Below are positions 21,167 through 61,323 of a stretch of 64,000 nucleotides of DNA, piece by piece; position 1 is the stretch's first letter; every line of letters begins with the position of its first letter. This DNA comes from Pelotomaculum thermopropionicum SI (GTDB lineage: Bacteria; Bacillota; Desulfotomaculia; Desulfotomaculales; Pelotomaculaceae), in NCBI GenBank assembly GCA_000010565.1, contig AP009389.1:1798001-1862000 (forward strand), given 5' to 3'. The notes under the pieces were generated by a model. That model was not told the origin of the DNA and made no database searches. It saw only the letters and a program-made list of their open reading frames with translations. A program made the position numbers and the translations under genes.

Positions 21167-21171
21167 AAAAA

Positions 21172-22836: not shown

Positions 22837-22851
22837 AGGAGGAAAAAGGCA

Positions 22852-23076
22852 ATGACAGAAAAATTTATCAATGCCAAAGGGCTCCAATGCCCCGGTCCCA
22901 TCGTTCAACTGTTCAGGGAAACCCAGGCCTGCAGCAAAGGTGATATCCTTTGTATTGAGGTAACGGATCAAGGCTTTAAAAAAGATATTGCTGCCTGGTG
23001 CAAAAAAACCGGTAACGAACTGCTCTCCCTGGAAGAAGGCGGCGGGGTAATCAAGGCCAGAATAAAGAAGAACTGA
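22852..23076 (+). CDS. TusA-like sulfurtransferase
   Basis: 74-aa SirA/TusA-fold protein. The conserved Cys lies in FINAKGLQCPGPIVQLF, where the CPxP motif reads CPGP. TusA proteins carry persulfide sulfur between partners. Between a rhodanese-fusion reductase and a DsrE-type protein, it probably shuttles sulfane sulfur rather than modifying tRNA. AAAGGAGG precedes the ATG. Confidence 0.9.
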   Translation: MTEKFINAKGLQCPGPIVQLFRETQACSKGDILCIEVTDQGFKKDIAAWCKKTGNELLSLEEGGGVIKARIKKN

Positions 23077-23093
23077 CCGGGGAGGGTACTTCT

Positions 23094-23570: not shown

Positions 23571-23588
23571 AATTTATGCGTTACCTTG

Positions 23589-23616
23589 CCGGCGCCACCT
23601 TAAAGCCGGTTTTTTT
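23589..23616 (+). terminator. Intrinsic terminator of the sulfur-relay operon
   Basis: CCGGC (23589-23593) pairs with GCCGG (23605-23609), followed by seven T (23610-23616). It overlaps the end of the convergent ftsY gene. Confidence 0.75.
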
Positions 23617-24526: not shown

Positions 24527-24620
24527 TGGCTCTGAACCTCCTTCAAACAAAGGGCCCCGGGGCATTTAAAACAATGGATGTGACCCGTTTAAATGCCGGC
24601 CCGGCGGCTCCGCACCAAAC

Positions 24621-25358: not shown

Positions 25359-25442
25359 TTCTATATTTTTCGTTGCCTTTGAAATTGCAAAAGAACCCTT
25401 TTATTTTCCTAATATTCTCTCAAAACCTACTGGCATCTATCT

Positions 25443-26684
25443 TTAATTTTCGTACTTCTTAAAAATTAAAGTGGCGTTATGCCCGCCAAAGCCGAAAGAA
25501 TTGGAAAGGGCTGCATTTACCTCGGCCTTTCTGGCGACATTTGGAACAAAATCCAGGTCGCATTCCGGATCAGGCTGCTCGTAGTTAATGGTAGGCGGAA
25601 TTACACCTTTATGGATTGCCATGACGCAAACTATTGCCTCCAGCCCGCCAGCCGCTCCCAGCAGGTGCCCGGTCATGGACTTGGTTGAACTTATTGCCAT
25701 TTCATAGGCATGCTGTTTGAAAACCTTTTTTATGGCCAGGGTCTCTGCTTTGTCTCCCAAAGGAGTCGCAGTGGCATGGGCGTTAATGTAATCTATCGAA
25801 TCCGGTTCAATGCCGGCATCTGCCAGTGCCTCCCGCATTGCCTTGACCGCCCCGCAGCCTTCCGGGTCGGGCGCCGTTATATGATAAGCATCGCAGGTGC
25901 TGCCGTAACCGGCCACCTCCGCATATATCCTGGCCCCCCTGTTTAAAGCGTTTTCCAGGGTTTCCAGCACCAGAATGGCGGCCCCTTCGCCCACCACAAA
26001 GCCGTCCCGTCCCGCATCAAAAGGCCTGCAGGCCTTTTCGGGCTCATCGTTCCTGGTGGACATTGCCTTCATTGAACAGAACCCGGCCATAGCTAAAGGA
26101 GTAATGGGGGCTTCTGTCCCTCCCGTAATTATAACATCGGCGTGGCCCCACTGAAGCATCTTGAAAGCGTCGCCTATGGCGTTTGTGCTTGAGGCACACG
26201 CCGTAACGGTGGTAATATTGGGCCCCTGCAGGCGGTAGCTTATGGCCACCTGCCCGGCTCCCATATTGGCAATCATCATGGGCACGAAAAAAGGACTGAC
26301 CCGCCCCGGCCCCTTTTCACCCAGAACCCTGGCTTGCTCCTCCAGCGTTTCAATTCCGCCAATGCCAGAGCCCAGGATAACGCCAATCCGGTTCCGGTCT
26401 GCTTTTTCCAGGTCAAGCCCTGAATCGCTTAAGGCCATACCGGTGGCAGCAACGGCAAACTGGGTAAAGCGGTCCATGCGCCGGGCCTCTTTTCTGTCCA
26501 TGTAATCAAAGGGATTAAAATCCTTAACTTCACCCGCAATTTTCGTGCTGAAATTAACCGGGTCAAACCTGGTCACCGGTTTGATGCCGGAAATCCCGCC
26601 GGTCAGGGAGGCCCAAAATTTCTCCAGGCCGGTTCCAACCGGCGAGATAATTCCCAAGCCGGTAACTACAACCCGCTTCCGCAA
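25443..26684 (-). CDS. fabF: 3-oxoacyl-ACP synthase II
   Basis: 413-aa KAS II for chain elongation. The catalytic triad is visible: Cys in [15 protein letters not shown], His in [11 protein letters not shown] and His in [18 protein letters not shown] start with AAGGAGGG upstream. An intrinsic terminator lies immediately upstream, after acpP, so fabF may be made mainly by readthrough. Confidence 0.96.
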
Positions 26685-26700
26685 TGATTATGCCCTCCTT

Positions 26701-26732
26701 TCAAAAAAGTCCCGTGGTTTCCCCCGGGACTT
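26701..26732 (-). terminator. Intrinsic terminator/attenuator between acpP and fabF
   Basis: On the minus strand a perfect 8-bp stem (CGGGACTT/AAGTCCCG, plus-strand arms 26707-26714 and 26725-26732), with a 10-nt loop, is followed by a run of T. It lies 18 bp after the acpP stop and 22 bp before fabF. It could give a high acpP to fabF mRNA ratio. Confidence 0.8.
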
Positions 26733-26749
26733 AAAAACCTTTGACGAAT

Positions 26750-26979
26750 CTATTGATGATCCTGAATATACTTCACGGCTTCGCCTACCGTGCGAATTTT
26801 CTCCGCATCTTCATCGGGGATTTCCAGGTCAAACTCCTCTTCCAGGGCCATTACAAGCTCCACAATATCCAAAGAGTCTGCCCCCAGGTCGTCTACAAAT
26901 GATGACTCCATTTTACTTCATCTTCTTCAACCCCTAACTGCTCAACAATAATGGACTTTACCCTGTCAAAAACAGACAT
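26750..26979 (-). pseudogene. acpP: Acyl carrier protein, frameshifted by one missing base
   Basis: The reading from ATG 26979 gives [23 protein letters not shown], then hits stops. Adding one A in the A4 run (plus-strand T4, 26911-26914) restores the rest of [18 protein letters not shown], with the Ser that takes phosphopantetheine, through [21 protein letters not shown] and a TAG at 26750-26752. The 230-bp span is one base short of 77 codons. ACP is essential and both halves are well conserved, so a homopolymer sequencing error is likelier than a dead gene. GGGGGTGA precedes the start. It lies between fabG and fabF, its usual place. Confidence 0.9.
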
Positions 26980-27021
26980 GGTTTGCAATCACCCCCTTCC
27001 GGCATCAAACCGCAATCTTGT

Positions 27022-27767
27022 TTAGCAGCATGTCATTCCACCGTCTACGGCTATAGTTTGCCCGTTTATGTAACCGGCAGCCTCTGTGGCCAAAAAGGCT
27101 ACTACATCAGCCACCTCCTCGGGTGTGCCAAATCTTTTTGCAGGAATCTGGTCAAGCATCCTCTCCCTGATTTTCTCCGGAAGCCCCGCGGTCATTTCGG
27201 TGGTAATAAACCCGGGCGCCACGGCGTTAACAGTTATGTTGCGTGACCCCAGTTCCCTGGCCATGGCCCTGGTCAAACCGATTAGGCCGGCCTTCGCGGC
27301 ACAATAGTTGGCCTGGCCGACATTTCCAATTAAACCCACCACAGAGCTGATATTGATGATTCGCCCATAGCGGCTCTTAACCATCTCTGCGGCAGCCGCC
27401 CTGATGCAGTTAAAAGCGCCCCTGAGGTTGACATCGAGTACAGACTCCCAGTCTTCGTCTTTCATCCGCAATACAAGGCTGTCCCTGGTAACACCGGCAT
27501 TATTCACCAGGATGTCGATCCTGCCAAACTCGGAAACTGCCGCTTTAACAAGGGCAGTGGCCCCGGCCGGCTCGGCCACGTCGGCCCTGTAAACCAGCGC
27601 CCTCCCACCGGAGTTCCTGATAATCTCCGCTACTTCCTCGGCCGCGCTGGAGCTCTTGGCATAATTTACCACCACGCCGGCCCCTTTCCGGGCCAGGGCC
27701 AGGGCAATAGCCCGGCCGATTCCCTGGAAGCGCCGGTAACTACGGCAAATCTACCGTTAAGAACCAT
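27022..27767 (-). pseudogene. fabG: 3-oxoacyl-ACP reductase FabG, frameshifted near the N-terminus
   Basis: ATG 27767 starts MVLNGRFAVVTGASR, then the frame breaks. One G missing from a G-run (plus-strand CCC at 27722-27724) would restore GIGRAIALALARKGAGVVVNYAKSS and the 217-codon frame that continues to 27022. The NADPH-binding TGASRGIG motif is exactly where the break falls. The rest is intact: NNAGVTRDSL, the catalytic Ser-Tyr-Lys (NISSVVG, then NYCAAKAG) and the C-terminus INGQTIAVDGGMTCC. The SDR enzyme reduces 3-ketoacyl-ACP. It sits one base after the fabD stop. A sequencing error is the simpler reading. Confidence 0.9.
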
Positions 27768-27768
27768 T

Positions 27769-28710
27769 TTAGCCAACCTCCCCGGTTAACGCAAGGACTT
27801 TTTCCAAAGAATCTTTATCTTCAATGTTGTAAACAGACACCTCACGGCTGATCTTTTTAATTAAGCCGCTCAGCACTTTGCCCGGCCCCACTTCAACAAA
27901 AGTATTGATCCCGCTTGAGATAAGCCTCAGGATGCTTTCCTCCCAGCGCACCGGACTGTAAACCTGTCTGATTAAAGCCTCTTTTACCTCTTTTCCGGTG
28001 TGCACAAAGTCGGCACTGACATTGGCCACAACAGGAATGGCCGGATCGCCGACAACAACTTCCGCCAGGTCCATGGCCAGCCTCTCCCCGGCGGGCTTCA
28101 TCAGGCTGGAATGAAACGGAGCACTTACCGGAAGGCTTATAAAACGCCTGGCACCCGCTTCTTTCGATAAAAGTTCGGCAGCCTTAAGCCCGGCTATGTC
28201 ACCGGCAACAACCACCTGGCAAGGACAGTTAAGGTTAACCGGTTCAACTATGCCCTCACTTGACGCTTTCCGGCATACTTCGGCCACGGCCTCCGCAGAA
28301 AGTCCGAGAACGGCGGCCATGCCGCCCTTTCCTAAAGGGACCGCCTCCTGCATGTACCGCCCCCTCTTATGTACCAGGCGGACGGCATCTTCAAATGTTA
28401 GCGACCCTGCCGCCACCAATGCAGTATATTCACCCAGGCTATGCCCGGCTACGGCGGCGGGGACGCCCCCCCCTTTTACCTTCAGCACTTCCAGGCAGGC
28501 AACGCTGACCGTCAAAACGGCCGGCTGGGTGTTGACGGTTTTGTTTAACTCATCCTCGGGCCCCTCAAAGCAGAGGCTGGAAATTGGGAAGCCCAGCGCT
28601 TCATCGGCCCTTTTAAAAACCTCTTTAGCCTCCGAAAAGCTGCTGTACAGCTCCCTGCCCATGCCGACGTACTGCGAACCCTGACCTGGAAAAACAAAGG
28701 CTACTTTCAT
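27769..28710 (-). CDS. fabD: Malonyl-CoA:ACP transacylase
   Basis: 313-aa FabD that loads malonyl groups onto ACP. It begins FVFPGQGSQYVGMGREL; the nucleophile Ser is in AGHSLGEYTALVAAG, the catalytic His in SAPFHSSLM, and the C-terminus has FVEVGPGKVLSGL. It overlaps fabK by four bases upstream, and its stop is one base from the fabG start. Confidence 0.97.
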   Translation of the reverse strand: MKVAFVFPGQGSQYVGMGRELYSSFSEAKEVFKRADEALGFPISSLCFEGPEDELNKTVNTQPAVLTVSVACLEVLKVKGGGVPAAVAGHSLGEYTALVAAGSLTFEDAVRLVHKRGRYMQEAVPLGKGGMAAVLGLSAEAVAEVCRKASSEGIVEPVNLNCPCQVVVAGDIAGLKAAELLSKEAGARRFISLPVSAPFHSSLMKPAGERLAMDLAEVVVGDPAIPVVANVSADFVHTGKEVKEALIRQVYSPVRWEESILRLISSGINTFVEVGPGKVLSGLIKKISREVSVYNIEDKDSLEKVLALTGEVG

Positions 28711-29660
28711 TGCTTTTGCACCACCAACTCGTTCAGACGGCCCAATACCTCGCCGGCCCCGCTTATAACCTCCATAATAATTTCTTTGGCCGGTTGAATC
28801 CGGCTTACCATGGCAGAAACCTGGCCGGCCGGAACCGTGCCGTACTCAATATCACCCTCCACCATTGCCATCCTCAGGCTACCCACCCCCAGTTTTTCAA
28901 TCTCTTCCAGAGGAGCGCCGCTCTTTTCCATTTCCTCGTACTTTCTGGTCAGCTTGTTACGCAGGGCCCTTACCGGGTGCCCGGTGGAAGCCCCCGTTAC
29001 AGCAGTATCCCGATCCTTTGCCCTGATAACAAATTCCTTTACTTTAAGCGGGATGGTGCACTCTGCAGCACACATAAAGCGGGTGCCCATCTGTACGCCC
29101 ACCGCTCCCAGAGCCAGGGCGGCCGCCATCCCCCTGCCGTCAAAAATACCTCCGGCGGCAATTACCGGAATGTCTACGGCGTCAACCACCTGAGGCACCA
29201 GAGCCATGGTGGTAAGTTCACCGATATGGCCTCCCGATTCCATCCCCTCGGCAATCAGGGCATCCACCCCGCCCCGGGCCAGCCTTTTGGCCAGGGCAAC
29301 TGAGGAAACTACCGGGATTATCTTTGTACCCGCTTCCCGCAAGGCAGGCACGTACTTGCCCGGGTTTCCGGCCCCGGTGGTGACAACCGCTACCGGTTCC
29401 TTCTGTAAAACGGCCATTATTTCCTCTACAAAGGGAGAATGGAGCATTACATTCACGCCAAATGGTTTTCTGGTCAACTGTCTGGCCTTATGCAGTTGTC
29501 CCCGGAGCCAGTCGGGAGAGGCGTTGCCCGACCCGATGATGCCAAGGCCCCCGGCCTCTGAAACCGCCGCGGCCAGTTCGGCAGTTGAAACCCAGGCCAT
29601 GCCGCCCTGGATAATGGGATAATCTATGCCAAGCAAATCACATAATATGGTACGGATCAA
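28707..29660 (-). CDS. fabK: FMN-dependent enoyl-ACP reductase II
   Basis: About 317 aa, of the nitronate monooxygenase/FabK TIM-barrel family. Motifs are YPIIQGGMAWVSTAELAAAVSEAGGLGIIG, ALIAEGMESGGHIGELTTM, PVIAAGGIFDGRGMAAALALGAVGVQMGTRF. The operon location makes FabK, the last reductive step of elongation, the best call; no FabI is in the window. TTG 29660 (GGAGGCGGG upstream) is preferred to the longer ORF start at 29705. Confidence 0.92.
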   Translation of the reverse strand: MIRTILCDLLGIDYPIIQGGMAWVSTAELAAAVSEAGGLGIIGSGNASPDWLRGQLHKARQLTRKPFGVNVMLHSPFVEEIMAVLQKEPVAVVTTGAGNPGKYVPALREAGTKIIPVVSSVALAKRLARGGVDALIAEGMESGGHIGELTTMALVPQVVDAVDIPVIAAGGIFDGRGMAAALALGAVGVQMGTRFMCAAECTIPLKVKEFVIRAKDRDTAVTGASTGHPVRALRNKLTRKYEEMEKSGAPLEEIEKLGVGSLRMAMVEGDIEYGTVPAGQVSAMVSRIQPAKEIIMEVISGAGEVLGRLNELVVQKQ

Positions 29661-29706
29661 TAATTCCCGCCTCCCGTAACAAGTATTTGTACTTGCTCTT
29701 TTCACC

Positions 29707-30699
29707 TTACCACCTTATCACCATGGCGCCCCAGGTTAAACCGGCGCCAAAACCTACCATTACGATATTGTCTCCCTTTTTAATTCTGCCGCCGCGCCAT
29801 GCCTCCTCCAGGGCCAGAGGTATAGAGGCCGTGGAGGTATTCCCGTACCGGTCCACATTGACTAACACCTTATCCATGGGCAAGCCGAGCCTTTTGGCGG
29901 CCGAGTCGATAATTCTTATGTTGGCCTGGTGAGGAATAAAAAAGTCCACCTCAGACTCCTTTAACCCCGTTGCATCCAGCACTTCTGCCACAGCATCCTC
30001 CATAATCCTGACTGCAAATTTAAAAACCTCTCGCCCGTTCATGTGGATGTAATGAAGCTTCTCCTCCACCGTTTCCCTGGTGGCCGGCCGTCTCGATCCT
30101 CCGGCCGGCATCATCAGCAGCGGCCCTTTTGAGCCGTCGGAATAAAGTTTAAAGGCCAGGATCCCGCTTTCATCCGCCGAAGGCCTTAAAACAACCGCCC
30201 CGGCCCCATCGCCAAAGAGAACGCAGGTATTACGGTCCTCCCAGTTGGTTACTCTGGATAAAGTTTCGGCACCGATCACCAGCACCGTCCTGCTCGCGCC
30301 GGTCGAGATGAACTGGCTGCCAACCGCCATGGCATAGATAAAACCGGTACATCCGGCGGCCAAGTCAAAAGCACCCGCCCTTTTCGCCCCAATCCGGTCC
30401 TGTACCAGGCAGGCGGTAGCGGGAAAAAACATATCCGGCGTATTGGTGGCAACTATAACCATATCTACTTCTTCCGGCCCTATTCCGGCGGCGGCCAGAG
30501 CCCGCCCGGCCGCTATCACGGCCAGGTCTGAAGTCGCCTGATCCGGCGAGGCTATGCGCCTTTCCCTGATCCCGGACCTGGTAATTATCCATTCGTCGCT
30601 GGTCTCTACCATCTCCTCCAGATGGGCATTGGTAAGAACCCTATCGGGCAGGTAGCACCCCACACCTGCAATCCCGGCTCTAATCAATTTCCTGGACAA
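29707..30699 (-). CDS. fabH: 3-oxoacyl-ACP synthase III
   Basis: About 330-aa KAS III starting fatty acid synthesis from acyl-CoA and malonyl-ACP. The catalytic Cys lies in [12 protein letters not shown], His in [11 protein letters not shown] and Asn in [13 protein letters not shown]. The ORF starts at a TTG inside the end of plsX (20-bp overlap). A second in-frame TTG four codons on would give the family-like start [11 protein letters not shown] cannot decide between them. Confidence 0.95.
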
Positions 30700-49591: not shown

Positions 49592-50932
49592 CTATCCCTT
49601 TTGCAAGGCCTTTGAATCTTCTGTGAAATACATGGCAATTGCACCAACAACAAGGGCAATTATGCAAAGAATGAAGGCCTTTTGATAAGCCTCAACCGGG
49701 AACTTGCCACCAACTTTGCCGTAGGCGTCCAGCACGCGCCCCATTATGGTCTGGAAAAACGCCCCGCCGACAAAGTACCAGATGTTGACCATACCGTTGG
49801 CCGTGGCAATGAAGCTGTGGGGCTGTCCTTCAGATACATGGGCATAGTTGGGCACGTAACTGCCGCAGAAAAAGCCCATTAAGAAAAGCAAGGGGTAGAA
49901 AAACCATACAGATATTTGCTCAGTAATAAACACTACCGGCAACCATGTTATTATATAGATAATCATGCCGTAGAGGGACGCCTTCCGCCTCGACTTCAGC
50001 ACCCTGTCGGAAGCCAGGCCTATAAAGAAGCAGCCGCAAGCCATCCCAATCGGCCACAGCATTAGCATGTTGGCGGCAGTTTGTTTGGAAAGACCGTAAA
50101 TATCCTGTGCGTAGGGCACAAACCAGAGTCCCTGGAATCCCATAACCGTACCGTAAATGCAGAACGCATAAATTGCTATCAGCCAGTAGTTTTTCATCCT
50201 GAACAGCTTTCCGCAGTTTTGCAGAAAAGTTGCATTGTCTGAAGCGTCGTTCGTCTTGTAATACTCAACTCCGTCAATTTCCGAAACGGTGGGCAATCCC
50301 ATATCTTGCGGCTTGTTCCTGAGCAAAACATAGTTTAAAATCGCAACAATTACCAGACCTGCGCCTACCCAGTAAAACGCTGCGCGCCACCCCATTGCGC
50401 CTACTATTACTGCCAGCGGTGCGGAGGCAATGATGGCGCCGACGTTGCCGAGGGTTAGCATCAGACCCGTCAACGTGGCAAACTCCTTGGGCCGGAACCA
50501 GTTGGCCAATATCCTCATACAGGGTATCCACACTACGGCCACACCGACGCCCATCAGAAAGCGGCCGAAAATTGCAATCCCGAAGGTTTTCGAGAGACCG
50601 AAAATGATTGTGCCGATAGCAGCGATAAGGAAAAATGTACCTACTGAAAACCTCGGTCCCAGGTAATCAGAGAGTATCCCCGACGGGATCTGCATTGCGG
50701 CGTAAGGGTAGAAATACATTGACGACAGAATACCCAGCGCAGTAGCCGTCAAGCCAAACTCCTTCATCAATTCAGGTGCCACGACGGCCGGACAGACACG
50801 GTCAAAATAGACGAAAACGTAGGTAAACAGTAAGATACCGTAGCAAACCCAACGGTAACGCAGCATTTTCTTAGCCAGTTGGCTGGATACCTGCACTTTA
50901 TTAGTACTTGTTTCGGTTGCCGCTTGACTCAT
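49592..50932 (-). CDS. MFS transporter, probably for an organic acid
   Basis: About 446 aa with twelve hydrophobic segments. The MFS signature between helices 2 and 3 is GILSDYLGPRFSVG, and FDRVCPAVVAPELMKEFGLT resembles the anion:cation symporter / glycerol-phosphate type. ATG 50932 follows AAGGAGG. It lies 330 bp downstream of fixX, in the same direction as the CoA-transferase/acyl-CoA dehydrogenase/Fix genes. Import of the carboxylate they metabolise is the natural guess; the substrate is not readable from sequence. Confidence 0.85.
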   Translation of the reverse strand: MSQAATETSTNKVQVSSQLAKKMLRYRWVCYGILLFTYVFVYFDRVCPAVVAPELMKEFGLTATALGILSSMYFYPYAAMQIPSGILSDYLGPRFSVGTFFLIAAIGTIIFGLSKTFGIAIFGRFLMGVGVAVVWIPCMRILANWFRPKEFATLTGLMLTLGNVGAIIASAPLAVIVGAMGWRAAFYWVGAGLVIVAILNYVLLRNKPQDMGLPTVSEIDGVEYYKTNDASDNATFLQNCGKLFRMKNYWLIAIYAFCIYGTVMGFQGLWFVPYAQDIYGLSKQTAANMLMLWPIGMACGCFFIGLASDRVLKSRRKASLYGMIIYIITWLPVVFITEQISVWFFYPLLFLMGFFCGSYVPNYAHVSEGQPHSFIATANGMVNIWYFVGGAFFQTIMGRVLDAYGKVGGKFPVEAYQKAFILCIIALVVGAIAMYFTEDSKALQKG

Positions 50933-51261
50933 TAGCAATCCTCCTTATTTCCTCTTTATTTAATGCACTCTTTTAACTCCATAAGCCCCTGATTAAACAA
51001 AATTAAGCTTCCTTATATTACTTACCCGCCCTTATACCAAGCCCCCTTTAACCTTATAAAATTAACTCGTTTTCATTTTCCTTTAGCAGCCCCCCCCCTT
51101 CCCTAATGTAATATCCTTAACAAGATTATTAAAAACCCAGGTTTACCTTGTTCCAAAAATAACTTGAATAAACATATATATCCTATATACCCTTAACCTT
51201 ACAGCAAAAATATTCCGCGCTTAAGGGCTTAAGAAACCTAAATGGTTATATTGCAAAAACC
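50933..51261. other. AT-rich intergenic region between fixX and the MFS gene
   Basis: About 330 bp without a credible ORF. It is AT-rich and holds a run of nine C (51090-51098). I see no clear sigma-54 or sigma-A promoter for the transporter and no strong terminator for fixX. Confidence 0.6.
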
Positions 51262-51549
51262 CTAGCCGTACCTGAAGCTGACCCCGAAGCCACCCCTTGG
51301 GTAGCCCCAGGCAATGGCCCCCTCCTTCGGGCAGACCGCCCTGCAGGTGCCGCACTCCAGGCAGCCCGCATAGTCGAAGTTGACCTCCCCGTTCTCCTTG
51401 AGGGTGTACAGGCAGGCCGGGCAGGCAAACGTGCACGGCTTTGTCGCGCACGAGGCGCAAATCTCCTTGTTTAAAACGATGTGGGCCTCTTCGTCGTCCA
51501 CCATAAACTTGTTTATCCCCAAAAGCTGCTCTATGGTCAGGCGTTTCAC
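51262..51549 (-). CDS. fixX: FixX-type ferredoxin-like protein
   Basis: 95-aa ferredoxin-like partner of FixC. Cysteines lie in CASCATKPCTFACPAC and in the canonical cluster CLECGTCRAVCP, with the FixX end GAIAWGYPRGGFGVSFRYG. With FixC it forms the ETF:quinone oxidoreductase-like module, the ferredoxin part passing electrons onward. It overlaps fixC by four bases. Confidence 0.93.
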   Translation of the reverse strand: MKRLTIEQLLGINKFMVDDEEAHIVLNKEICASCATKPCTFACPACLYTLKENGEVNFDYAGCLECGTCRAVCPKEGAIAWGYPRGGFGVSFRYG

Positions 51550-52844
51550 AGGATGCGCGCTCCTTTCCAGCCGTCGCCGGCCAGCTGGGCAAGGCCGGCC
51601 TGGCTTTCTTTAACCTGGCTTAATACCTTGTTCAAAAGGTGCGCCGGCGGGCTGCCGTCAACGGTAAACATCCTGCTCATCAACCCGCAGGCCAGTTGCG
51701 GGTAAACTTCGAACATGCGCCGGTTCTCTAAAAAGTGCGGCGCCTTGCGGTAAAACTCGAGGTCTCTTAGCACGAAGCTTTCTTTGAGCAGTTTGGCGTA
51801 CTGGCTTAGGCTCTGGCGGCTGAAGTTGTTGTTCCTGGCGGCCTCTATTACGGTCTGGGCGGCGGCCTGGCCTGAGGCGATGGCAAAGTCCATGCCGCGC
51901 ACTATATAGCCCAGGTTTAAAACGAACCCGGCGGCGTCGCCTGCAACGAGAATGCCGTCGCCGTATAACCGGGGCATCATGTCTAAACCGGCTTCGGGCA
52001 CGAGATGGGCGGAGTATTCTACTACTTCTCCTCCTTCGACGAGGGGCCTGATGTGGGGATTGTGCTTGAATTCTTCGACCAGGTCGGCAATTTTGTGCTG
52101 GGTCTTCTGCAGTTCTGCTGCTTTTATGACCAGGCCCAGGGATATTGTGTCTTTGTTGGTGTAGATGAACCCGCCACCCTGCATGCCTTTGGTGCACTCG
52201 CCGACGAAAAGCTGGGCTGCGCCGTTGTTGCCTTCTAACTGGAAGCGCCGGCTGATCTCTTCGGGGGAAAGCTTGATTACTTGTTTTACGCCGGTGGCCA
52301 CCTGGCCGGGGGAAAACATCCTGGCCAGGCCGGCTTTCTGGGCCATGAGGGAGTTGACGCCGTCTGCTGCGATCACTACGTCGGCCAGCATTTCGTCTTC
52401 GCCGGCTCTTATGCCTACAATGCGGCCGTCTTTAATTAAAAGGTCGTCGACGCGGATGCCGCAGGCCAGCATGGCTCCTGCTTCTTCGGCTTTGGCGGCC
52501 AGCCAGGCGTCGAACTCGGCCCGCAGCAGGGTGAAGGAATGGTAATGGTAGGGCGGCTTGGTCCAGCTTAAGTCCTGAATGCTTATGGACAGGCACTGGT
52601 CTCCGGTCATAAGGGTGATGATTTCTTTTGCTACGGGCCTTTCTACGGGGGCTTCGGCCCAAAAGCCGGGAATGACCTGGTTTAGGGCGTGGCTGTACAT
52701 CCGCCCGCCGAACATGTTTTTGGACCCGGGCGCTGCTCCTTTTTCTATGAGCAGTACTTCAAGGCCTGCTTTGGCCATCAGGTAGGCGGCGGTGCTGCCT
52801 GCGGGCCCGGCACCGACTACGATTGCGGCAAATTTCTCTTCCAT
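51546..52844 (-). CDS. fixC: FixC-type FAD-dependent ETF:quinone oxidoreductase
   Basis: 432-aa flavoprotein. FAD motif at the N-terminus is VVGAGPAGSTAAYLMAKAG, the second FAD site is GDGILVAGDAAGFVLNLGYIVRGMDFAIASGQ. FixC is related to ETF-QO but its Fe-S part is supplied by FixX. It would take electrons from the FixAB/ETF pair and pass them to a quinone or another acceptor. It lies between fixB and fixX. Confidence 0.94.
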   Translation of the reverse strand: MEEKFAAIVVGAGPAGSTAAYLMAKAGLEVLLIEKGAAPGSKNMFGGRMYSHALNQVIPGFWAEAPVERPVAKEIITLMTGDQCLSISIQDLSWTKPPYHYHSFTLLRAEFDAWLAAKAEEAGAMLACGIRVDDLLIKDGRIVGIRAGEDEMLADVVIAADGVNSLMAQKAGLARMFSPGQVATGVKQVIKLSPEEISRRFQLEGNNGAAQLFVGECTKGMQGGGFIYTNKDTISLGLVIKAAELQKTQHKIADLVEEFKHNPHIRPLVEGGEVVEYSAHLVPEAGLDMMPRLYGDGILVAGDAAGFVLNLGYIVRGMDFAIASGQAAAQTVIEAARNNNFSRQSLSQYAKLLKESFVLRDLEFYRKAPHFLENRRMFEVYPQLACGLMSRMFTVDGSPPAHLLNKVLSQVKESQAGLAQLAGDGWKGARIL

Positions 52845-52866
52845 AAGGCTTAAAACCCCGCTTGTG

Positions 52867-53826
52867 TTATTTGTTGAGGGCTATCCTGAGTTCTTTGATC
52901 AGTTTGGGCACGACGTCGTACAGGTCGCCTACTATGCCGTAATCGGCGGCGTCGAATATGGGGGCGTTTTCGTCGCGGTTTACGGCTAAAACGACTTTGC
53001 TGTCGCGCATGCCGGTAACGTGCTGGATCTGCCCGGCTACTCCAAGACCGATGTAAAGGCCGGGCTTGACTTTCTTGCCGGAAATGCCGATGTAGAGGTC
53101 TTCTGGCAGCCAGCGCAGTTCTTCGGCCACGGGCCGGGTACAACCAACGGCGCCGCCGGTCACCTGGGCGAGTTCTTGGGCTAAATTCAGGTCTTCTTTT
53201 TTCTCGAAGCCGCGCCCGGCGCAGACTACTACTTTTGCCTCGGTTATGTCTACTGCTTCGGCGGCTTTGGGAGCCCTGCCGACTACTTTGACGGGTGAGG
53301 GCTGAACGCCGGCCAGTTCGGTGACCTTCCCCTGCCTGCCTTCCTGCGGTGCGGCGGGCTCGAAGGTGCGGGGAGGAATGGTGGCCATCTGGGGCCGGCC
53401 GCTGCATACCACCGTCTGCACGGCGGCACCGCCGTAAAGCATGCGCTCCATGATTAGCTGTTTTTTCTCTTTGTCGAGTTTTAGGGCGGTGCACCCGCTG
53501 CACAGCCCGGTGTCAAGGGCGGCGGCAACGCGGGCGGCTATCTCTCTGCCGCGCTGGGTCGCACTGATTAGAAATATGTCGGGGTCGCCGCCGCGAACGG
53601 CTTCTATTATGGCCGGAACGTATGCTTCTAAGGGCTGGCCGCCGGCCAGGGGGGGCAGCACCAAAACTTCGCCGGCGCCGCAACTGATGTATTCTTCGGC
53701 CAACTGCCTGCTTGTTGCAAAGGTAACTACCGCTGCCCCGTCAAGCTGGCGGGCCAGGCTTGTTCCGGCGCTTATAAGCTCTAAGGTCTGTTCGCGGCTT
53801 TCTGCAAATATCCAGATGCCTGCCAT
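52867..53826 (-). CDS. fixB: Electron transfer flavoprotein alpha subunit (FixB)
   Basis: 319-aa ETF-alpha. The C-terminal FAD domain has the signature VVVCAGRGFEKKEDLNLAQELAQ, YIGISGKKVKPGLYIGLGVAGQIQH and AVNRDENAPIFDAADYGIVGDLYDVVP. Pairs with FixA encoded just upstream. Whether it bifurcates electrons cannot be judged from sequence by eye. Confidence 0.95.
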   Translation of the reverse strand: MAGIWIFAESREQTLELISAGTSLARQLDGAAVVTFATSRQLAEEYISCGAGEVLVLPPLAGGQPLEAYVPAIIEAVRGGDPDIFLISATQRGREIAARVAAALDTGLCSGCTALKLDKEKKQLIMERMLYGGAAVQTVVCSGRPQMATIPPRTFEPAAPQEGRQGKVTELAGVQPSPVKVVGRAPKAAEAVDITEAKVVVCAGRGFEKKEDLNLAQELAQVTGGAVGCTRPVAEELRWLPEDLYIGISGKKVKPGLYIGLGVAGQIQHVTGMRDSKVVLAVNRDENAPIFDAADYGIVGDLYDVVPKLIKELRIALNK

Positions 53827-53843
53827 GTTCTATGACCAACTCC

Positions 53844-54617
53844 TTATGCTATTACTCCTTCTTTCAACAATGCGTCTACCACGGCCTTGATGTCGGCTGC
53901 CTCGGCGCTGTACTTCAAACGGCGCCGCTCCATGGTCGCTCCTAAAATGCTTATGGTCTCAAGGCGCGGCTGAAAGTCCTGCCCTAAGTCGCTCTTCTTG
54001 ATCTCTTCTACGGGCTTCTTGGCGGCTCCTAAAACCTGCTTTAAACTGGGTATCCGGGGTGTGTTGATGTCGGGCAGCACCGTTATGAGCGCGGGCAGTT
54101 GGATGCTTACTGTCTCTATGCCGTCGTCAAGCTTGCGCTCGGCTGTGAGCTTCTTCTCGCCGGGCTCTAAGGTCACTTTGTTAACGTAGGTGGCGCAGGG
54201 TATGCCGAGCCGCTGGGCCAGGGCGGGCCCGACTTGCTGGGCGTACAGGTCGCTGGAACCTTCGCCGCAGATGATCAGGTCGAACTCGCCTTTCGTTTTT
54301 ATGGCTTCTGCCAGTATGGCGGCGGTCTGGGACGGCTCGAGCGCGGCAAAGGATGGATCGCTGATAAACCACGCCCGCTCGGGCCCGCGGGACAGGGCGT
54401 CTTTTAAGCTCTGCCTGGCGCCGGGCGGCCCTACTGTCACGGCCACCACGCTGCCGCCGTGGGCTTCCTGCTGCCGCACGGCTTCTTCAATGGCGTTGCG
54501 GTCGTAGTCGCTGATCTTGTAGCCTACTCGCTCCATTATGAGCTCGCGGCTCTTCTGGTCGACTCTTATGTCTTGTTCGTCTATTACCCACTTGAAACAA
54601 GCGATGATCTTGAGCAT
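53844..54617 (-). CDS. fixA: Electron transfer flavoprotein beta subunit (FixA)
   Basis: 257-aa ETF-beta with the family start MLKIIACFKWVIDEQDIRV, SDYDRNAIEEAVR, DLIICGEGSSDLYAQQVGPALAQRLGIPCATYV and the C-terminal LPALITVLPDINTPRIPSLK. Accepts electrons from the acyl-CoA dehydrogenase encoded upstream. Confidence 0.95.
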   Translation of the reverse strand: MLKIIACFKWVIDEQDIRVDQKSRELIMERVGYKISDYDRNAIEEAVRQQEAHGGSVVAVTVGPPGARQSLKDALSRGPERAWFISDPSFAALEPSQTAAILAEAIKTKGEFDLIICGEGSSDLYAQQVGPALAQRLGIPCATYVNKVTLEPGEKKLTAERKLDDGIETVSIQLPALITVLPDINTPRIPSLKQVLGAAKKPVEEIKKSDLGQDFQPRLETISILGATMERRRLKYSAEAADIKAVVDALLKEGVIA

Positions 54618-54656
54618 GTCTCGCCTCTCCTGTTTTTTAATTGCTCTCTTGTATCC

Positions 54657-54744
54657 CCAGGGAAGGCAGAGAAGGGGGACTTACTCGCCACCTATCTCTC
54701 CGACAGGCTTGACTTTGGTCTATTCTCTGCCTTATTTTCCCTGG
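54657..54744 (-). other. Long imperfect hairpin between acyl-CoA dehydrogenase and fixA
   Basis: CCAGGGAAGGCAGAGA (54657-54672) is complementary to TCTCTGCCT and TCCCTGG within 54724-54744, across a 51-nt loop and with a TATT bulge. It fills most of the 166-bp gap between the two genes of the same operon. It may be an mRNA processing or attenuation structure; it lacks a T run, so it is not a simple terminator. Confidence 0.5.
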
Positions 54745-54783
54745 TGGTCTATGTGAAGCAACAAAGCCGCTATGTTGTCTTGC

Positions 54784-55923
54784 CTACCGCAGCAGGTTGC
54801 CGGCTATGACCATCCTCATCACTTCGTTGGTACCTTCGTAAATCTCGGTGATCTTGGCGTCGCGGTACAGCCGCTCGACTTTGTGCCCTTTGATGTAACC
54901 GATGCCGCCGTGGATCTGCACTGCTCTGTTGGTGTGCCTGGCGGCGCACTCGGAGGCGAACAGCCTGGCCATGGCGGCTTCTTTGCTGTAGGGCCTCCCC
55001 TGGTCGTAACACCAGGCGGCGTAGTAGGTCAAAAACCTCGCGGCTTCAACGTCGGTGGCCATGTTGGCGATCATCCACTGGATGGCCTGGAAGGAACTGA
55101 TCGGTTTGCCAAACTGCACTCTCTCTTTGGAGTATGAAATTGACTCGTCTAAAGCGGCCTGGGCTATCCCCAGCGCCTGGGCGGCTATCCCGATCCGCCC
55201 GCCGTCCAGGGTGGACATGGCAATCTTGAAACCTTCGCCTTCTTTGCCCAACAGGTTCTCTTTGGGTATGCGGCAGTCTTTCATGATTACTTCGGCGGTG
55301 AGGGAACCGCGAATGCCCATCTTGTTCAGGTGCTTGCCGATCTGCAGCCCGGGCGCATCGGCGGGTACGATGAATGCGCTTATGCCTTTGGCTCCCTTGC
55401 TCTTGTCGGTGGATGCGAATATTACCAGCACTCCGGCTACCGGCGCGTTGGATATGAACATCTTGGTGCCGTTTAATACGTACTCGTCACCGACCAGCAC
55501 TGCGGTGCTCTGGCCGGAAGCTGCGTCGGTGCCGGCCCCGGGCTCGGTCAGGGCAAATGACCCTAATATCTCGCCCTTGCACATGGGCACCAGCCACTTC
55601 TTCTTCTGCTCTTCGGTGCCGTACTTGTATATGGGATAACTGGCTAATGAGGTGTGGCATTCCAGGGTAAACCCGGTGGTGGCGCAGGCCCGGGACAGCT
55701 CTTCAAGCACGATGATGTAGGTCAGATAGTCTGACCCGGCACCGCCGTACTCGACGGGATAGGGTATGCCGGTCCACTCTTGCTCGGCCAGCTTCTTTAC
55801 GGTCTCCATCGGAAAGTATGCTTCCTGGTCTACTTTGTCGGCTATGGGCTCTACGTACTTCTGGCAAAATTCTCTTACGCTGGCGCGCACTAATTCTTGT
55901 TCTTCGGTTAGCTTGAAGTTCAT
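54784..55923 (-). CDS. Acyl-CoA dehydrogenase
   Basis: 379-aa flavin enzyme oxidising an acyl-CoA to enoyl-CoA, with electrons passed to ETF. Seen: YPVEYGGAGSDYLTYIIVLEEL, GSFALTEPGAGTDAASG (FAD/substrate), RVQFGKPISSFQAIQWMIANMATDVEAAR and YRDAKITEIYEGTNEVMRMVIAGNLL with the catalytic Glu of the IYEGTNE motif. Closest in type to short-chain (butyryl-CoA or caiA-like) enzymes; exact substrate unknown. Second-to-middle gene of the sigma-54 operon. Confidence 0.93.
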   Translation of the reverse strand: MNFKLTEEQELVRASVREFCQKYVEPIADKVDQEAYFPMETVKKLAEQEWTGIPYPVEYGGAGSDYLTYIIVLEELSRACATTGFTLECHTSLASYPIYKYGTEEQKKKWLVPMCKGEILGSFALTEPGAGTDAASGQSTAVLVGDEYVLNGTKMFISNAPVAGVLVIFASTDKSKGAKGISAFIVPADAPGLQIGKHLNKMGIRGSLTAEVIMKDCRIPKENLLGKEGEGFKIAMSTLDGGRIGIAAQALGIAQAALDESISYSKERVQFGKPISSFQAIQWMIANMATDVEAARFLTYYAAWCYDQGRPYSKEAAMARLFASECAARHTNRAVQIHGGIGYIKGHKVERLYRDAKITEIYEGTNEVMRMVIAGNLLR

Positions 55924-56054
55924 AGTAATCCCCTTTCATACATGAATTTTTTTAAGCAGCCGGGTTTTTTTAAGTTCCCCGGCTGCCTTTGTCACGCGAT
56001 ATTAACACTGCCGGAACATTTTCTTTAACTTTTAGTCAAACTGTTGCCTTTACA

Positions 56055-57521
56055 TTACTTCTTTTTCTTTTCGGGCTCCGGCACTTCCTCAGTAATACCG
56101 GCAACCTTGCGGGCATATTCGGCATACAGGTCTATAGGAGTATTGGCCCTTACAACCAGCTTGGCGCCGTCGGGCGAACCGCCGCCATGCATGCAGCCAG
56201 GAACACCGGCGCCCAGGGTGAGCCATTCAACAAGCCTTGCCGCACGCGCCCTGGTTTCTGCGCTGAACTTGTCGCTGGCCTTAACGGCTCTCTGCACCAG
56301 GTGGCCGTACAGCGGGTCGTTGAAGTCCTTGTAGGACGGGAAGCAACCTGTCTCCACAATGCCGCCTCCGATATCCTGGCAGAGTCGCTTGGTTTCGTAA
56401 GGAAGTGTAGCCACATGAACCTTGTTTGTGTGGGCCATGAGCGAATCTGATACCCAACAGCCCGCCGGGTGCTGTTTGCCGAGGGCCATGGCCCCGATAC
56501 CCACACCGTAGGTAGTTTCGTTGTTTATGGCCATGTCTATTATCTTGTTGATAAAGGTGCTTGCGGCAAGGCCGTTGGTCCTGGCCATCAATGCAGCAGC
56601 ACCGATCATTACATCGCCCTGCCCGGCCACGCAGGCACCGATGCAGGCCCGGTAATTGGCTGTGAAGTACTGGATAATCTTCCCGGTATATTTGTATTCC
56701 TTGCACATAAATACTCTCTCGTTGGGAACAAAGCAGTCTGTAAAGAGCAAGTAGGCCTGGGTTATTCCAGTTTCAGGAATGTCAAAACCTTCTTCGTACT
56801 CTCTGCTGTCGCTGGGACGGCGTGTTTCAACTATCGTCAACCCCTCTATATCGCGGGGCACTACACAGGCCAGGGCATAATCTTGATCATCTTCCCTGTA
56901 ACCGCTGCCCGGCAACAGGAAAATCTCGTTGGATGCCGCCACGCCGCAAATCATTGTCTTAAACCCGCTGATGACAATGCCGTCTTCACGGACTTCCTTA
57001 ATACGCAAATTGCTATCAGGATCGGATTGCTGCGACGGTCTCAGGCTGCGGTCGCCTTTAGCATCGGTCAGGGCGCCAGCCACTACCAGGCCTTTTTCCT
57101 GAGCCTGCAGAATCCATTTCTTAAGACGCTCCTGGTAGTTAGTCCCGTACTCCTTGTCCATTTCATAAGTTACGTTCCACATTACGTTTAAGGCGTTCCA
57201 GCCAACACACAGGCCGCCAGCGCAGGTACCGGTCACGCGGTACATGGCGCGCTTTAACTTGGCGTTGTACATGATCTCTTCAAGGTTAGTCATCATTGAA
57301 GTCCAGCGGTGTATCTTTTCCCCGGTAAAGGACGACACAGTTGTGAAGATGTCGGCATACTCAGAATCATGGGACATGTCAAAGGCACGGGCGTGGCTTT
57401 CCACAGTCCGGCGGGTAGCCGGGTGGGTAGTCACGTCTTTAATAAGTTCCCCGAACTTGTAAACATTCGGCCGCATCGCCTTTAATGATTTTAAATAATC
57501 TTCTCTGGTTTTCAGTGCCAT
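56055..57521 (-). CDS. 4-hydroxybutyryl-CoA dehydratase/HpaB-superfamily flavoprotein, divergent
   Basis: 488 aa, of the superfamily joining 4-hydroxybutyryl-CoA dehydratase (AbfD) with flavin monooxygenases such as HpaB. It keeps FTDCFVPNERVFMC and GQGDVMIGAAALMARTNGL. From memory AbfD binds [4Fe-4S] through C99, C103, H292 and C299, with E257, Y296 and K300 in catalysis. Here the first pair is C100-x4-C105 (one residue longer). My alignment puts Tyr290 at H292, Ile294 at Y296, Cys297 at C299, Val298 at K300 and Gln255 at E257; an extra Cys293 is nearby. So it is probably not a true AbfD, and an oxygen-dependent hydroxylase is unlikely in this context. Reaction unknown, likely on a CoA ester. 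Confidence 0.78.
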   Translation of the reverse strand: MALKTREDYLKSLKAMRPNVYKFGELIKDVTTHPATRRTVESHARAFDMSHDSEYADIFTTVSSFTGEKIHRWTSMMTNLEEIMYNAKLKRAMYRVTGTCAGGLCVGWNALNVMWNVTYEMDKEYGTNYQERLKKWILQAQEKGLVVAGALTDAKGDRSLRPSQQSDPDSNLRIKEVREDGIVISGFKTMICGVAASNEIFLLPGSGYREDDQDYALACVVPRDIEGLTIVETRRPSDSREYEEGFDIPETGITQAYLLFTDCFVPNERVFMCKEYKYTGKIIQYFTANYRACIGACVAGQGDVMIGAAALMARTNGLAASTFINKIIDMAINNETTYGVGIGAMALGKQHPAGCWVSDSLMAHTNKVHVATLPYETKRLCQDIGGGIVETGCFPSYKDFNDPLYGHLVQRAVKASDKFSAETRARAARLVEWLTLGAGVPGCMHGGGSPDGAKLVVRANTPIDLYAEYARKVAGITEEVPEPEKKKK

Positions 57522-57585: not shown

Positions 57586-59163
57586 TTAACGCCTGCCCTT
57601 TGCCAGTATCTCTTCCTTGATTCCCATCGGTGCATCCCTGAATATACGGGGATCCATCAGTTTGAGATCGGGAGCTATTAACGGCTTGAACTCCATCTGT
57701 CCCAGAACGTCTCTTTCCAGATCCACTCCGGGCGCAATTTCGGTCAGGGTCACTCCCTCCGGCCGGAGTTCGAACACAGCCCGCTCGGTTACATACTTGA
57801 TCTTCTGACCGCTTGATCGGCCGTAGTCGCCGCTAAATGTGATATGCTCCACTTTCTTGACAAACTTCTTGATCTTGCCTTCATTGACGATTTTCAGCTG
57901 CCCGTCGTTAATCTCAAGCTTCAAACCGCCGGCCGTCATGGTTCCGCAAAACACCACTGTTCCGGTGCTCTGGGTGATGTTTATGAAACCGCCCGCCCCG
58001 GCAATGCGCGGGCCAAACTTGCTTACGTTGACATTTCCGTACTGGTCCATTTCCGCCATTCCCAGCACTGCCAGGTCAAGCCCGCCCCCGTCGTAAAAGT
58101 CGAACATATTGGGGTGGTCGACCATTGCCTCCGGATTGACGGCGGTTCCGAAATACACGCCGCTCAACGGCACCCCGCCAATTACTCCCGGTTCCACTGT
58201 CATTGTCATGTTGCCGCTGATGCTCTCTTCAGCCGCCACTGCCCCGACGCCTTCCGGCATGCCGATGCCCAGATTGACAACAGCATCAGGAATCAGTTCC
58301 ATGGCGCACCTCCGGCAAATGACCTTCCTCTCATTAAGAGGCAGGGGCTTTACGGCGCTTAAAGGCACTTTGACTTCTCCGCTGAGGCTGGGGTTGTAAG
58401 GCTCACCCATCGGAACCTGCCAGTGGTTCTCAGGCTTGGCCACAACCACCGCGTCCACTACAACCTTTGGTACTTTGACCATCATCGGGTGCAGCGACCC
58501 GGCCCTCGCCACCCTCTCCACCTGGACGATCACCTTGCCGCCTGAAGCTTTGGCCGCCAGCGCCAGGGCCAGGAACTCCAAGGCTATGCCCTCTTTTTCG
58601 ATGGATATGTTGCCCAACTCGTCCGCCGTTGTTCCTCTTATGATCGCCACGTTTATAGGAAATGCCTTATAAAACAGGTACTCTTTTCCGTCAATTTCAA
58701 TTAGCCTGACATACTCCTCATGGCTGATGTCGTTCAGCCTGCCGCCCGTCTCCCTGGGGTCAACAAATGTTCTTAATCCCACATGGGTTATTATGCCTGG
58801 CTTTTTGCCGGCAATGGCCCTGAAAAGATGCATCATGACCCCCTGGGGCAGGTTGTAGGCCTCTATTTTGTTTTCCACAGCCATACGGATTAAGTCGGGC
58901 TGAAGTCCCCAGTGTCCGGATACAACCTTTTTCAACAGCCCTTCTTTCGCCCAGCGGTTCAGCCCCCAGTTCGACTTTCCGTCGTTCTGGCTGGCGCCAA
59001 ATGCTAATGTTATGTCTCTTGGCTCGCCGGTTTCCAGAAACCTCTTCTCGACTGCCTTTGAAATCTCTTCCGGGTGGCCCATCCCGACAAACCCGGAGGT
59101 AGCCACCGTATCGCCGTTTTTTATTAACTTTGCAGCTTCTTCGGCAGTCATAAATACAGCCAT
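57586..59163 (-). CDS. Acyl-CoA:acetate CoA-transferase (propionate CoA-transferase type)
   Basis: 525-aa single-chain class I CoA-transferase. Fused alpha and beta halves are visible: GDTVATSGFVGMGHPEEISKAVEKRF at the N-terminus and LGIGMPEGVGAVAAEE in the second half, whose Glu is the covalent CoA-thioester residue. It activates a carboxylate by moving CoA from acetyl-CoA or similar. It is the first gene after the sigma-54 promoter, with a leader of roughly 95 nt, and is followed at 64 bp by the AbfD-like gene. Confidence 0.92.
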   Translation of the reverse strand: MAVFMTAEEAAKLIKNGDTVATSGFVGMGHPEEISKAVEKRFLETGEPRDITLAFGASQNDGKSNWGLNRWAKEGLLKKVVSGHWGLQPDLIRMAVENKIEAYNLPQGVMMHLFRAIAGKKPGIITHVGLRTFVDPRETGGRLNDISHEEYVRLIEIDGKEYLFYKAFPINVAIIRGTTADELGNISIEKEGIALEFLALALAAKASGGKVIVQVERVARAGSLHPMMVKVPKVVVDAVVVAKPENHWQVPMGEPYNPSLSGEVKVPLSAVKPLPLNERKVICRRCAMELIPDAVVNLGIGMPEGVGAVAAEESISGNMTMTVEPGVIGGVPLSGVYFGTAVNPEAMVDHPNMFDFYDGGGLDLAVLGMAEMDQYGNVNVSKFGPRIAGAGGFINITQSTGTVVFCGTMTAGGLKLEINDGQLKIVNEGKIKKFVKKVEHITFSGDYGRSSGQKIKYVTERAVFELRPEGVTLTEIAPGVDLERDVLGQMEFKPLIAPDLKLMDPRIFRDAPMGIKEEILAKGRR

Positions 59164-59266: not shown

Positions 59267-59284
59267 GCGCAAATGTCGTGCCTA
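59267..59284 (-). promoter_or_regulatory. Sigma-54 (-24/-12) promoter of the CoA-transferase operon
   Basis: On the minus strand GGCACG-ACAT-TTGCG places GG at 59282-59281 and GC at 59270-59269, exactly 10 nt between, matching the RpoN consensus (TGGCACG-N4-TTGCW). It lies about 105 bp upstream of the CoA-transferase start and downstream of the sigma-54 activator gene. Confidence 0.85.
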
Positions 59285-59799: not shown

Positions 59800-61323
59800 T
59801 TAAATCCGCAGTTTTTCGTCATAATAAGAATCAAACACATCCAGTTCCTGACCGGCAGAGAGCTTGTATTTTTTTATCTTGCGCACTATGGTCGACTGAT
59901 TGACCTTTAAAGCCCTGGCTACCTTTCTGGTGCTCCCGTATTTCTTCAGCGCCTGTTCGATCAGATGCTTTTCCACATGCTCAACCGCCTTTTTCAGCGG
60001 CATTATCTCCGAGAACATTATGTCGTTTTGCAGGGAGGAAAGGTTTTTGATGTTGCCGGGCAGGTGGATGGTCCTGATTTCGTCTGATTTTGTCATAACC
60101 ATCACCCGCTCGATCACGTTTTCCAGTTCCCTGATGTTGCCCGGCCACGGATAGGCTGAAAGCCTGTCGATAACGTCAGGGGCAAAGCGCTTGTTAAACC
60201 CGTACTTTTTATTGATTTTCTCCAAAAAGTGCAAGGCCAGCAGCGGTATGTCCTCCCTTCGCTCCCTTAAAGGCGGAATTTCTATCGAAACCACGTTAAG
60301 CCGGTAGTAGAGGTCGTCCCTGAACTTCTCTTTCCTGACCATTTCCATCAGATCTTTATTCGTTGCCGCTACAATCCGGACGTCTACGGGAATGGGCTTC
60401 AGCCCGCCCACCCGGAGCACTTCGTGGTCCTGCAGGACCCTGAGCAGCTTTACCTGAAGATTCAGGGAAAGTTCCCCCACTTCATCCAGAAAAAGGGTTC
60501 CTTTTTCTGCCAGCTCAAACATGCCCGGCTTCCCCTGCTTTCTGGCCCCCGTAAAGGCCCCCGGCTCGTATCCGAACAGTTCGGACTCCAGCAGGTTCTC
60601 CGGAATGGCGCCGCAGTTTATCTTAATTAAAGGCCCTTTGGAACGGTGGCTCAAGCAGTGAATCACATTGGCAACTATTTCCTTGCCGACCCCGGACTCG
60701 CCGGTAATCAAAACGGTTGAGTCAACCTTGGCAACCTGCGCCGCCATATCGAGCACCCGCTTGGTTTTAGGGCTACTGGCAACGATATTGTCGTACTGCA
60801 CATGCTGAATGCGCATCTGCTCCAGTTCGGCAGCGTATTTTTCGTTAAGCTGCTGCGTTTCCTCCAGTTGATCCCTGAGATTTACTATTTCCGTGATGTC
60901 CCTTACGTTAACGACCACTCTTTTGATGTTGCCCTCGTCGTCCATAACCGGTATGCCGGTTGCCATAATCTTTTGCCCTACCTTTTCCCCCTTTGTCATT
61001 TTCAACATTATCGTAACTTCTTTTTTAGCCTTAAGGGCACAGATGGCGGCCGACTCTGACCAGAACCCCTTATCTACCATTTCCTGGGCGTTTTTACCGA
61101 CAACAAAATCCCTTGAAATTCCGCAAATGCGCTCCCAGGCGCTGTTAACCCTCAAAATAACGCCCTGGCCGTCCGTAATAAATATGCCGTCGTGGGAGGC
61201 CTCAAGAACCTGTTCAAGTTCGCTGGCAAAGCGGCGCGCTTCCAGAATTCCCATATTTCTGACAGGTATGAAAAAAGGCTCAGAACTGTCGTTCGAGGCG
61301 GGTATTGCGTTGTCAATAATCAA
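59800..61323 (-). CDS. Sigma-54-dependent PAS-domain transcriptional activator
   Basis: 507 aa. A PAS domain (about 38-150: LEQVLEASHDGIFITDGQGVILRVNSAWERI) is followed by a short coiled coil. The AAA+ domain has Walker A GESGVGKE, the sigma-54 contact loop GAFTGARKQG, Walker B GTLFLDEVGEL and an arginine-finger region. A C-terminal Fis-type helix-turn-helix (STRKVARALKVNQSTIVRKIKKY) ends the protein. No receiver domain, so it senses a ligand or redox state directly through PAS. TTG start after GGGAGGGG. It precedes the sigma-54-promoter operon in the same direction and is its likely regulator. Confidence 0.94.
   Translation of the reverse strand: MIIDNAIPASNDSSEPFFIPVRNMGILEARRFASELEQVLEASHDGIFITDGQGVILRVNSAWERICGISRDFVVGKNAQEMVDKGFWSESAAICALKAKKEVTIMLKMTKGEKVGQKIMATGIPVMDDEGNIKRVVVNVRDITEIVNLRDQLEETQQLNEKYAAELEQMRIQHVQYDNIVASSPKTKRVLDMAAQVAKVDSTVLITGESGVGKEIVANVIHCLSHRSKGPLIKINCGAIPENLLESELFGYEPGAFTGARKQGKPGMFELAEKGTLFLDEVGELSLNLQVKLLRVLQDHEVLRVGGLKPIPVDVRIVAATNKDLMEMVRKEKFRDDLYYRLNVVSIEIPPLRERREDIPLLALHFLEKINKKYGFNKRFAPDVIDRLSAYPWPGNIRELENVIERVMVMTKSDEIRTIHLPGNIKNLSSLQNDIMFSEIMPLKKAVEHVEKHLIEQALKKYGSTRKVARALKVNQSTIVRKIKKYKLSAGQELDVFDSYYDEKLRI

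Follow-up and report, generated by a model that had tools for sequence, protein, structure and literature searches.

An AbfD-like protein of Pelotomaculum thermopropionicum belongs to a conserved clade in which the catalytic residues of 4-hydroxybutyryl-CoA dehydratase are replaced

An acyl-CoA operon of Pelotomaculum thermopropionicum SI contains a gene for a protein resembling AbfD, the 4-hydroxybutyryl-CoA dehydratase (4HBD) of C. aminobutyricum, in which residues required by the dehydratase are replaced, raising the question of whether the product still works as a dehydratase, has decayed, or performs other chemistry on the same scaffold. The gene occupies positions 56055–57521 on the minus strand of the window, that is, the whole stretch of 64,000 nucleotides analyzed here (positions 1,798,001–1,862,000 of the 3,025,375-base single-contig genome), and encodes 488 residues from an ATG start at 57521, with a G-rich, ribosome-site-like stretch on its 5′ side. 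The protein is 37% identical to AbfD (PDB 1u8v), with the AbfD/4HBD fold over its full length; 1u8v (E = 1e-95, residues 3–476) and the 4HBD of N. maritimus (6vjr, E = 2e-92) are the nearest solved structures by sequence, and HpaB follows far behind. An AF2 model calculated from a 79-sequence alignment (pLDDT 93, pTM 0.90) superposes on 1u8v over 473 residues at 1.5 Å (Z 51.8) and on 6vjr at 1.9 Å (Z 52.9), compared with Z 39 for HpaB and Z 24 for acyl-CoA dehydrogenases, and this predicted structure has the fold that defines the 4HBD functional family. The Pfam models HpaB_N (PF11794, 266 bits) and HpaB (PF03241, 138 bits) match the protein; since another 4HBD-family member matches the same HpaB model, these matches are not diagnostic. 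No NCBIfam equivalog is reached, the scores being 108 bits for HpaB-1 (cut-off 480) and 76 bits for HpaB-2 (cut-off 885).

In a preliminary description made from the sequence, the His ligand of the AbfD cluster was stated to be replaced by Tyr290, Tyr296 by Ile294, Lys300 by Val298, and Glu257 by Gln255 (56757–56759, minus strand, as for all features below), with the first Cys pair reading CxxxxC in place of CxxxC. All of these assignments are borne out by residue mapping in the 1u8v numbering, which was itself checked: His292 corresponds to Tyr290, and Cys99 and Cys103 to Cys100 and Cys105 (57207–57224), with one extra residue between them. The accompanying statement that Cys100, Cys105, Cys293, and Cys297 remain is correct for three of the four, Cys297 being the equivalent of Cys299, but Cys293 stands at the position of Ser295 and is thus a gained residue, not a retained AbfD cysteine. 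The run Tyr290-Arg-Ala-Cys293-Ile294-Gly-Ala-Cys297-Val298 (56628–56654), corresponding to H292..S295-Y296..C299-K300 of AbfD, lies in a long helix (residues 276–315). Two further dehydratase residues are replaced, Thr190 by Cys192 (56946–56948; Ala in 12 of 56 relatives described below) and Glu455 by Gly442 in 'GAGVPGCMHGGGSP', where Gly442-Cys443 (56193–56198) takes the place of Glu455-Ser456. A structure-based alignment, proposed as a check, was made with the AF2 model and agrees with the sequence alignment, so that the replacements stand; because no gap occurs between AbfD residues 288 and 306, the missing His, Lys, and Tyr do not reappear at neighboring positions, and a misalignment masking a nearby His, Lys, or Glu is ruled out. 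Compared with the AbfD enzymes of known structure, the full-length fold, the three cluster cysteines, and the acyl-CoA gene setting are therefore shared, whereas the His ligand, the Cys pair spacing, and Y296, K300, E257, E455, and T190 have all changed, and a stretch E390-T-G-C393 (56343–56354), holding a clade-specific two-residue insertion, is new.

The start of the 4HBD reaction by a radical route is regarded as unusual, and the single variants E257Q, E455Q, Y296W, and H292C/E of the C. aminobutyricum enzyme were reportedly found to be inactive in work by Zhang et al. in 2015. The known radical start is thus not expected in the AbfD-like protein, which may work like a 4-hydroxybutyryl-CoA dehydratase but, with the defining residues replaced, should not be classified as one. 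A second, stand-alone 4HBD-family member is encoded in the same genome (1261669–1263114); it retains CxxxC, the His, and the Lys, has Cys at the Tyr296 position, and has lost Glu455, and no 4-hydroxybutyrate genes were seen beside it.

The same replacements recur in a clade of about 56 proteins, 60–84% identical to the query, found by a genome scan (57 loci) and by whole-genome searches that brought further loci. The sources are Bacillota, Desulfobacterota, MAGs labeled Myxococcota, Bacteroidota (many of them rumen MAGs), Chloroflexota, Synergistota, and one Euryarchaeota MAG. In the phylogeny, also proposed as a check, the clade is monophyletic (SH-aLRT 100), sits on a long stem, and adjoins the true 4HBDs. 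Tyr290, Cys297, and Cys393 are each present in 56 of 56 members and Gln255 in 55; Ile294, Val298, and the CxxxxC motif are fixed in essentially all 56, and the clade-specific residues W108, Q301, R314, E390, W433, and D451 are invariant as well. Pairwise dN/dS within the clade, for pairs with unsaturated synonymous sites, is 0.035–0.115. Judged by these sequence measures, the clade retains its replacements under purifying selection, presumably as a working, conserved active site of different design, and the intact reading frame, the clade-wide conservation, and the low dN/dS rule out a pseudogene or decayed copy. The earlier proposal that loss of the dehydratase residues implies other chemistry is thereby well supported by the conserved losses, the clade's own invariant residues, and the dN/dS values. 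Where the clade has Tyr290 and Cys293, a sister protein (locus L105, genome G256; 51% identity) carries Glu and Thr, respectively; it shares the invariant E390 and C393. One member, in PH28_bin88 (L055:10174-11457), lacks an N-terminal stretch and lies close to a thiolase gene and a gene of canonical 4HBD-like type; two more clade copies are present in that genome.

Our leading interpretation, to which we give about an even chance, is that the protein represents a clade of the 4HBD superfamily that spans several phyla and is undescribed, and that it is an active acyl-CoA enzyme of different chemistry, with FAD and a [4Fe–4S] cluster as the cofactors expected by homology to 4HBD. With respect to the cluster, C99, C103, and C299 are unchanged in all 118 aligned family members, and the residue at position 292 goes together with the length of the loop: His is accompanied by CxxxC in 59 of 59 proteins, and Tyr (56), Glu (1, L105), or Gln (2, L020 and L138) by CxxxxC in the other 59. 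Although these changes occurred twice on the tree, two independent origins are not claimed, because the AU test leaves a single origin unrejected and the tree held to one origin scored higher; the association may therefore rest on one event. The two Gln-bearing proteins make up a lineage of their own within the 4HBD family; it retains Lys300 and Glu455, has Glu257 replaced by Ser and Tyr296 by Ser or Thr, and is a possible intermediate.

It was suggested in the preliminary description that Cys100, Cys105, Cys293, and Cys297 could hold an all-Cys cluster; such a cluster, having no open iron, would play a structural or electron-transfer role and leave catalysis to FAD alone. In accordance with this idea, Cys293 is present in 52 of 56 clade members and is predicted to lie one helical turn from Cys297, on the helix that in AbfD carries H292 and C299. 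Cys100, Cys105, and Cys297 are indeed invariant, but Cys293 is replaced by Asn (L043), Tyr (L127), Pro (L130), and Ala (L133) in four clade members and by Thr in the sister protein, with the other three cysteines and the rest of the motif kept, which weakens the idea for the clade as a whole and makes it, in our estimation, rather unlikely. A site formed by the three cysteines with Tyr290, or with an open iron, is simpler and fits the sequences better: Tyr290 never varies within the clade, and its equivalents outside, His, Glu, and Gln, are all possible metal ligands. Tyrosine is a rare ligand of [4Fe–4S] clusters.

More doubtful is the possibility that the protein is a cluster-free flavoprotein like HpaB, the oxygenase component of 4-hydroxyphenylacetate 3-monooxygenase (2yyg), or a non-catalytic partner of the acyl-CoA dehydrogenase and ETF. 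HpaB shares the fold and PF11794/PF03241, by which Pfam names the protein, and a K-x-M-I-(C/A) stretch at about residues 188–192 is nearer to R-M-T-A of HpaB than to H-Q-T of AbfD. However, HpaB is without the three cluster cysteines that are invariant here, the HpaB equivalog cut-off is far from being reached, the predicted structure is nearer to 4HBD (Z 52 versus 39), and the clade gene lies in an acyl-CoA operon of anaerobes with no flavin reductase gene. The many clade-specific invariant polar residues suggest catalysis, contrary to a non-catalytic role.

The operon in the window reads, all on the minus strand, PAS–sigma54-type activator, CoA-transferase, AbfD-like gene, short-chain acyl-CoA dehydrogenase, EtfB, EtfA, FixC, FixX, and MFS transporter. 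The activator (59800–61323) is a candidate regulator, and a sigma54 promoter-like GGCAC-N5-TTGC (59269–59282) lies 106 nt before the start of the CoA-transferase gene; in the 450 nt preceding the activation gene, such a pattern was found at 7 of 12 clade loci scanned (the window and six others) and occurs six times in the entire window on both strands. The CoA-transferase, a type I enzyme of 525 residues resembling FadX/YdiF (57586–59163, 64 bp upstream of the AbfD-like gene), probably serves in substrate activation. Downstream are the dehydrogenase (54784–55923), which has the catalytic Glu in IYEGT and C. difficile Bcd (5ol2) as its best PDB match, EtfB (53844–54617, FixA/YdiQ-like), EtfA (52867–53826, FixB/YdiR-like), a FixC/YdiS-like FAD oxidoreductase (51546–52844) scoring above the PRK10015 cut-off, a 95-residue FixX-like ferredoxin recognized from its translation (51262–51549, overlapping the end of fixC), and the MFS transporter, a candidate acid importer (49592–50938). 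The E. coli ydiF-ydiO-ydiQRST operon likewise combines a YdiF-type CoA-transferase, an acyl-CoA dehydrogenase, a FixAB-type ETF, FixC, and FixX, and to our knowledge is devoid of an AbfD-like gene. The dehydrogenase–EtfB–EtfA–FixC module exists in up to three copies in the genome, at 51261–55924 of the window and within genome positions 12000–30000 (99.2% identical over 4669 bp) and 496000–514000 (98.6% over 1990 bp), the AbfD-like gene being at only one of them; to judge from the sequence identity, a plug-in module has apparently been duplicated, or homogenized by gene conversion, in recent times.

Across the clade loci, an acyl-CoA dehydrogenase of the same group recurs as a neighbor at 34 loci and EtfB/EtfA at about 25, and the CoA-activating neighbor differs, being a YdiF-type transferase, a PaaK-type ligase, or a cat1-type transferase. 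These recurrent genes indicate that the substrate is the acyl-CoA of a small acid, but not which acid. Genes for SSADH-like proteins, aminotransferases, 2-oxoacid:ferredoxin oxidoreductases, MetNIQ with transsulfuration enzymes, and homocysteine methyltransferases (several named by eye) adjoin a few loci each, and with neighbors varying in this way, sulfur amino acid and 2-oxoacid oxidoreductase genes occurring at some loci, one common substrate is not assured. At two loci (L058 and L086), clade members stand in gene runs with cystathionine β-synthase/γ-lyase-like genes, together with a MetNIQ-like transporter at the former and a sulfonate-type ABC transporter at the latter, a setting in which a sulfur-containing substrate is possible. 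Of the candidate substrates considered, namely 4-hydroxybutyrate, 4-aminobutyrate, methylthio- or mercaptopropionate, branched-chain acids, and ectoine derivatives, none was adopted, each being backed by few loci.

The neighboring acyl-CoA dehydrogenases are of two kinds, with or without the catalytic Glu. The Glu is present, within IYEGT, in the window, Moorella, Desulfofundulus, and some Syntrophaceae, and is replaced by Gly or Ala at most other loci (PSGGTS, PSAGTS; ungapped alignment with 5lnx); all 11 proteins of the first kind have Glu at this site, and the second kind has Gly in 26, Ala in 9, Cys in 1, and Ser in 1. The Glu-less dehydrogenases (L040:11539-12681, L059:6911-8044, L047:4381-5520, and others) share a conserved NGRKCFITN motif and apparently form an undescribed subgroup; a search of the literature library used here returned nothing on the clade or on Glu-less acyl-CoA dehydrogenases. 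Defined as relatives of the L040 protein at E ≤ 1e-120, the Glu-less kind is found in 10 of 398 Bacillota genomes, the clade in 11, and both in 7 (some unlinked); thus, 7 of the 11 clade genomes have it, against none of the 56 genomes whose 4HBD-family members all lie outside the clade (hypergeometric P = 1e-10, phylogeny ignored). The pairing, though strong, has exceptions, since three genomes have the Glu-less kind without the clade; among those inspected, one carries it in ectoine-utilization-like surroundings and another within an operon of acetoacetate-like type. P. thermopropionicum has its own Glu-less dehydrogenase elsewhere in the genome, at 2,115,637, where, in L184:6799-12174 (genome about 2,113,300–2,118,700), it and EtfBA adjoin superoxide dismutase-like and multicopper-oxidase-like genes (named by eye); superoxide dismutase-like genes are also near clade members in L059 and L071. 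In a motif scan of L163–L183, five further own-genome dehydrogenases (L167–L171) yielded no motif.

Least likely of the alternatives is that the protein has retained 4-hydroxybutyryl-CoA dehydratase or vinylacetyl-CoA isomerase activity by means of substitute residues. Such a role would suit the common fold, the nearby activation gene and short-chain acyl-CoA dehydrogenase, and the locus L133, where a clade gene is accompanied by a cat1-type CoA-transferase and by a permease whose group also occurs next to a canonical 4HBD-family gene (L135). Against it stand the replacement of H292, Y296, E257, E455, K300, and T190 altogether, the reported inactivity of the single variants, and the finding of no 4-hydroxybutyrate-forming gene beside the AbfD-like gene.

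In the predicted course of the reaction under the favored reading, that of an active acyl-CoA enzyme with different chemistry, a small carboxylic acid would be imported by the MFS transporter and converted to its CoA thioester by the YdiF-type transferase. The thioester would then be bound between FAD and a [4Fe–4S] cluster held by Cys100, Cys105, and Cys297, whose fourth site may be Tyr290 or an open, substrate-binding iron. We speculate that a redox-neutral change, either an elimination or a double-bond shift, follows, with Tyr290, Cys393, Glu390, and Gln255 as candidate residues of the new set, yielding or consuming a short-chain enoyl-CoA that would be handled by the neighboring acyl-CoA dehydrogenase and EtfAB, the electrons passing to FixCX. 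An acyl-CoA formed by CoA transfer undergoes redox-neutral elimination in the reaction of γ-butyrobetainyl-CoA:TMA lyase (BbuA), a member of the acyl-CoA dehydrogenase superfamily about 10% identical to 4HBD (PMC8364193). The bbu gene cluster is a different one, and identity with it is ruled out by its class III CoA-transferases. With some hesitation, we extend this reading to the clade as a whole, which may constitute a new class of FAD/[4Fe–4S] acyl-CoA enzymes with a Tyr-ligated or open cluster site, paired with the Glu-less dehydrogenase and ETF in an undescribed anaerobic acid-degradation route of syntrophs, sulfate reducers, and rumen Bacteroidales.

With its scaffold and three cluster cysteines retained, but every residue known to take part in the radical start exchanged in concert across several phyla, the clade amounts to a natural experiment on what this scaffold can do. 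For syntrophs, sulfate reducers, and rumen bacteria, pathway reconstructions in which its genes are labeled "4HBD" or "4-hydroxyphenylacetate 3-hydroxylase" are probably in error. Altogether, the AbfD-like protein probably takes part in small-acid degradation through a reaction not yet described, and its clade's repeated association with a Glu-less acyl-CoA dehydrogenase points toward an entire unassigned pathway that is open to biochemical testing.
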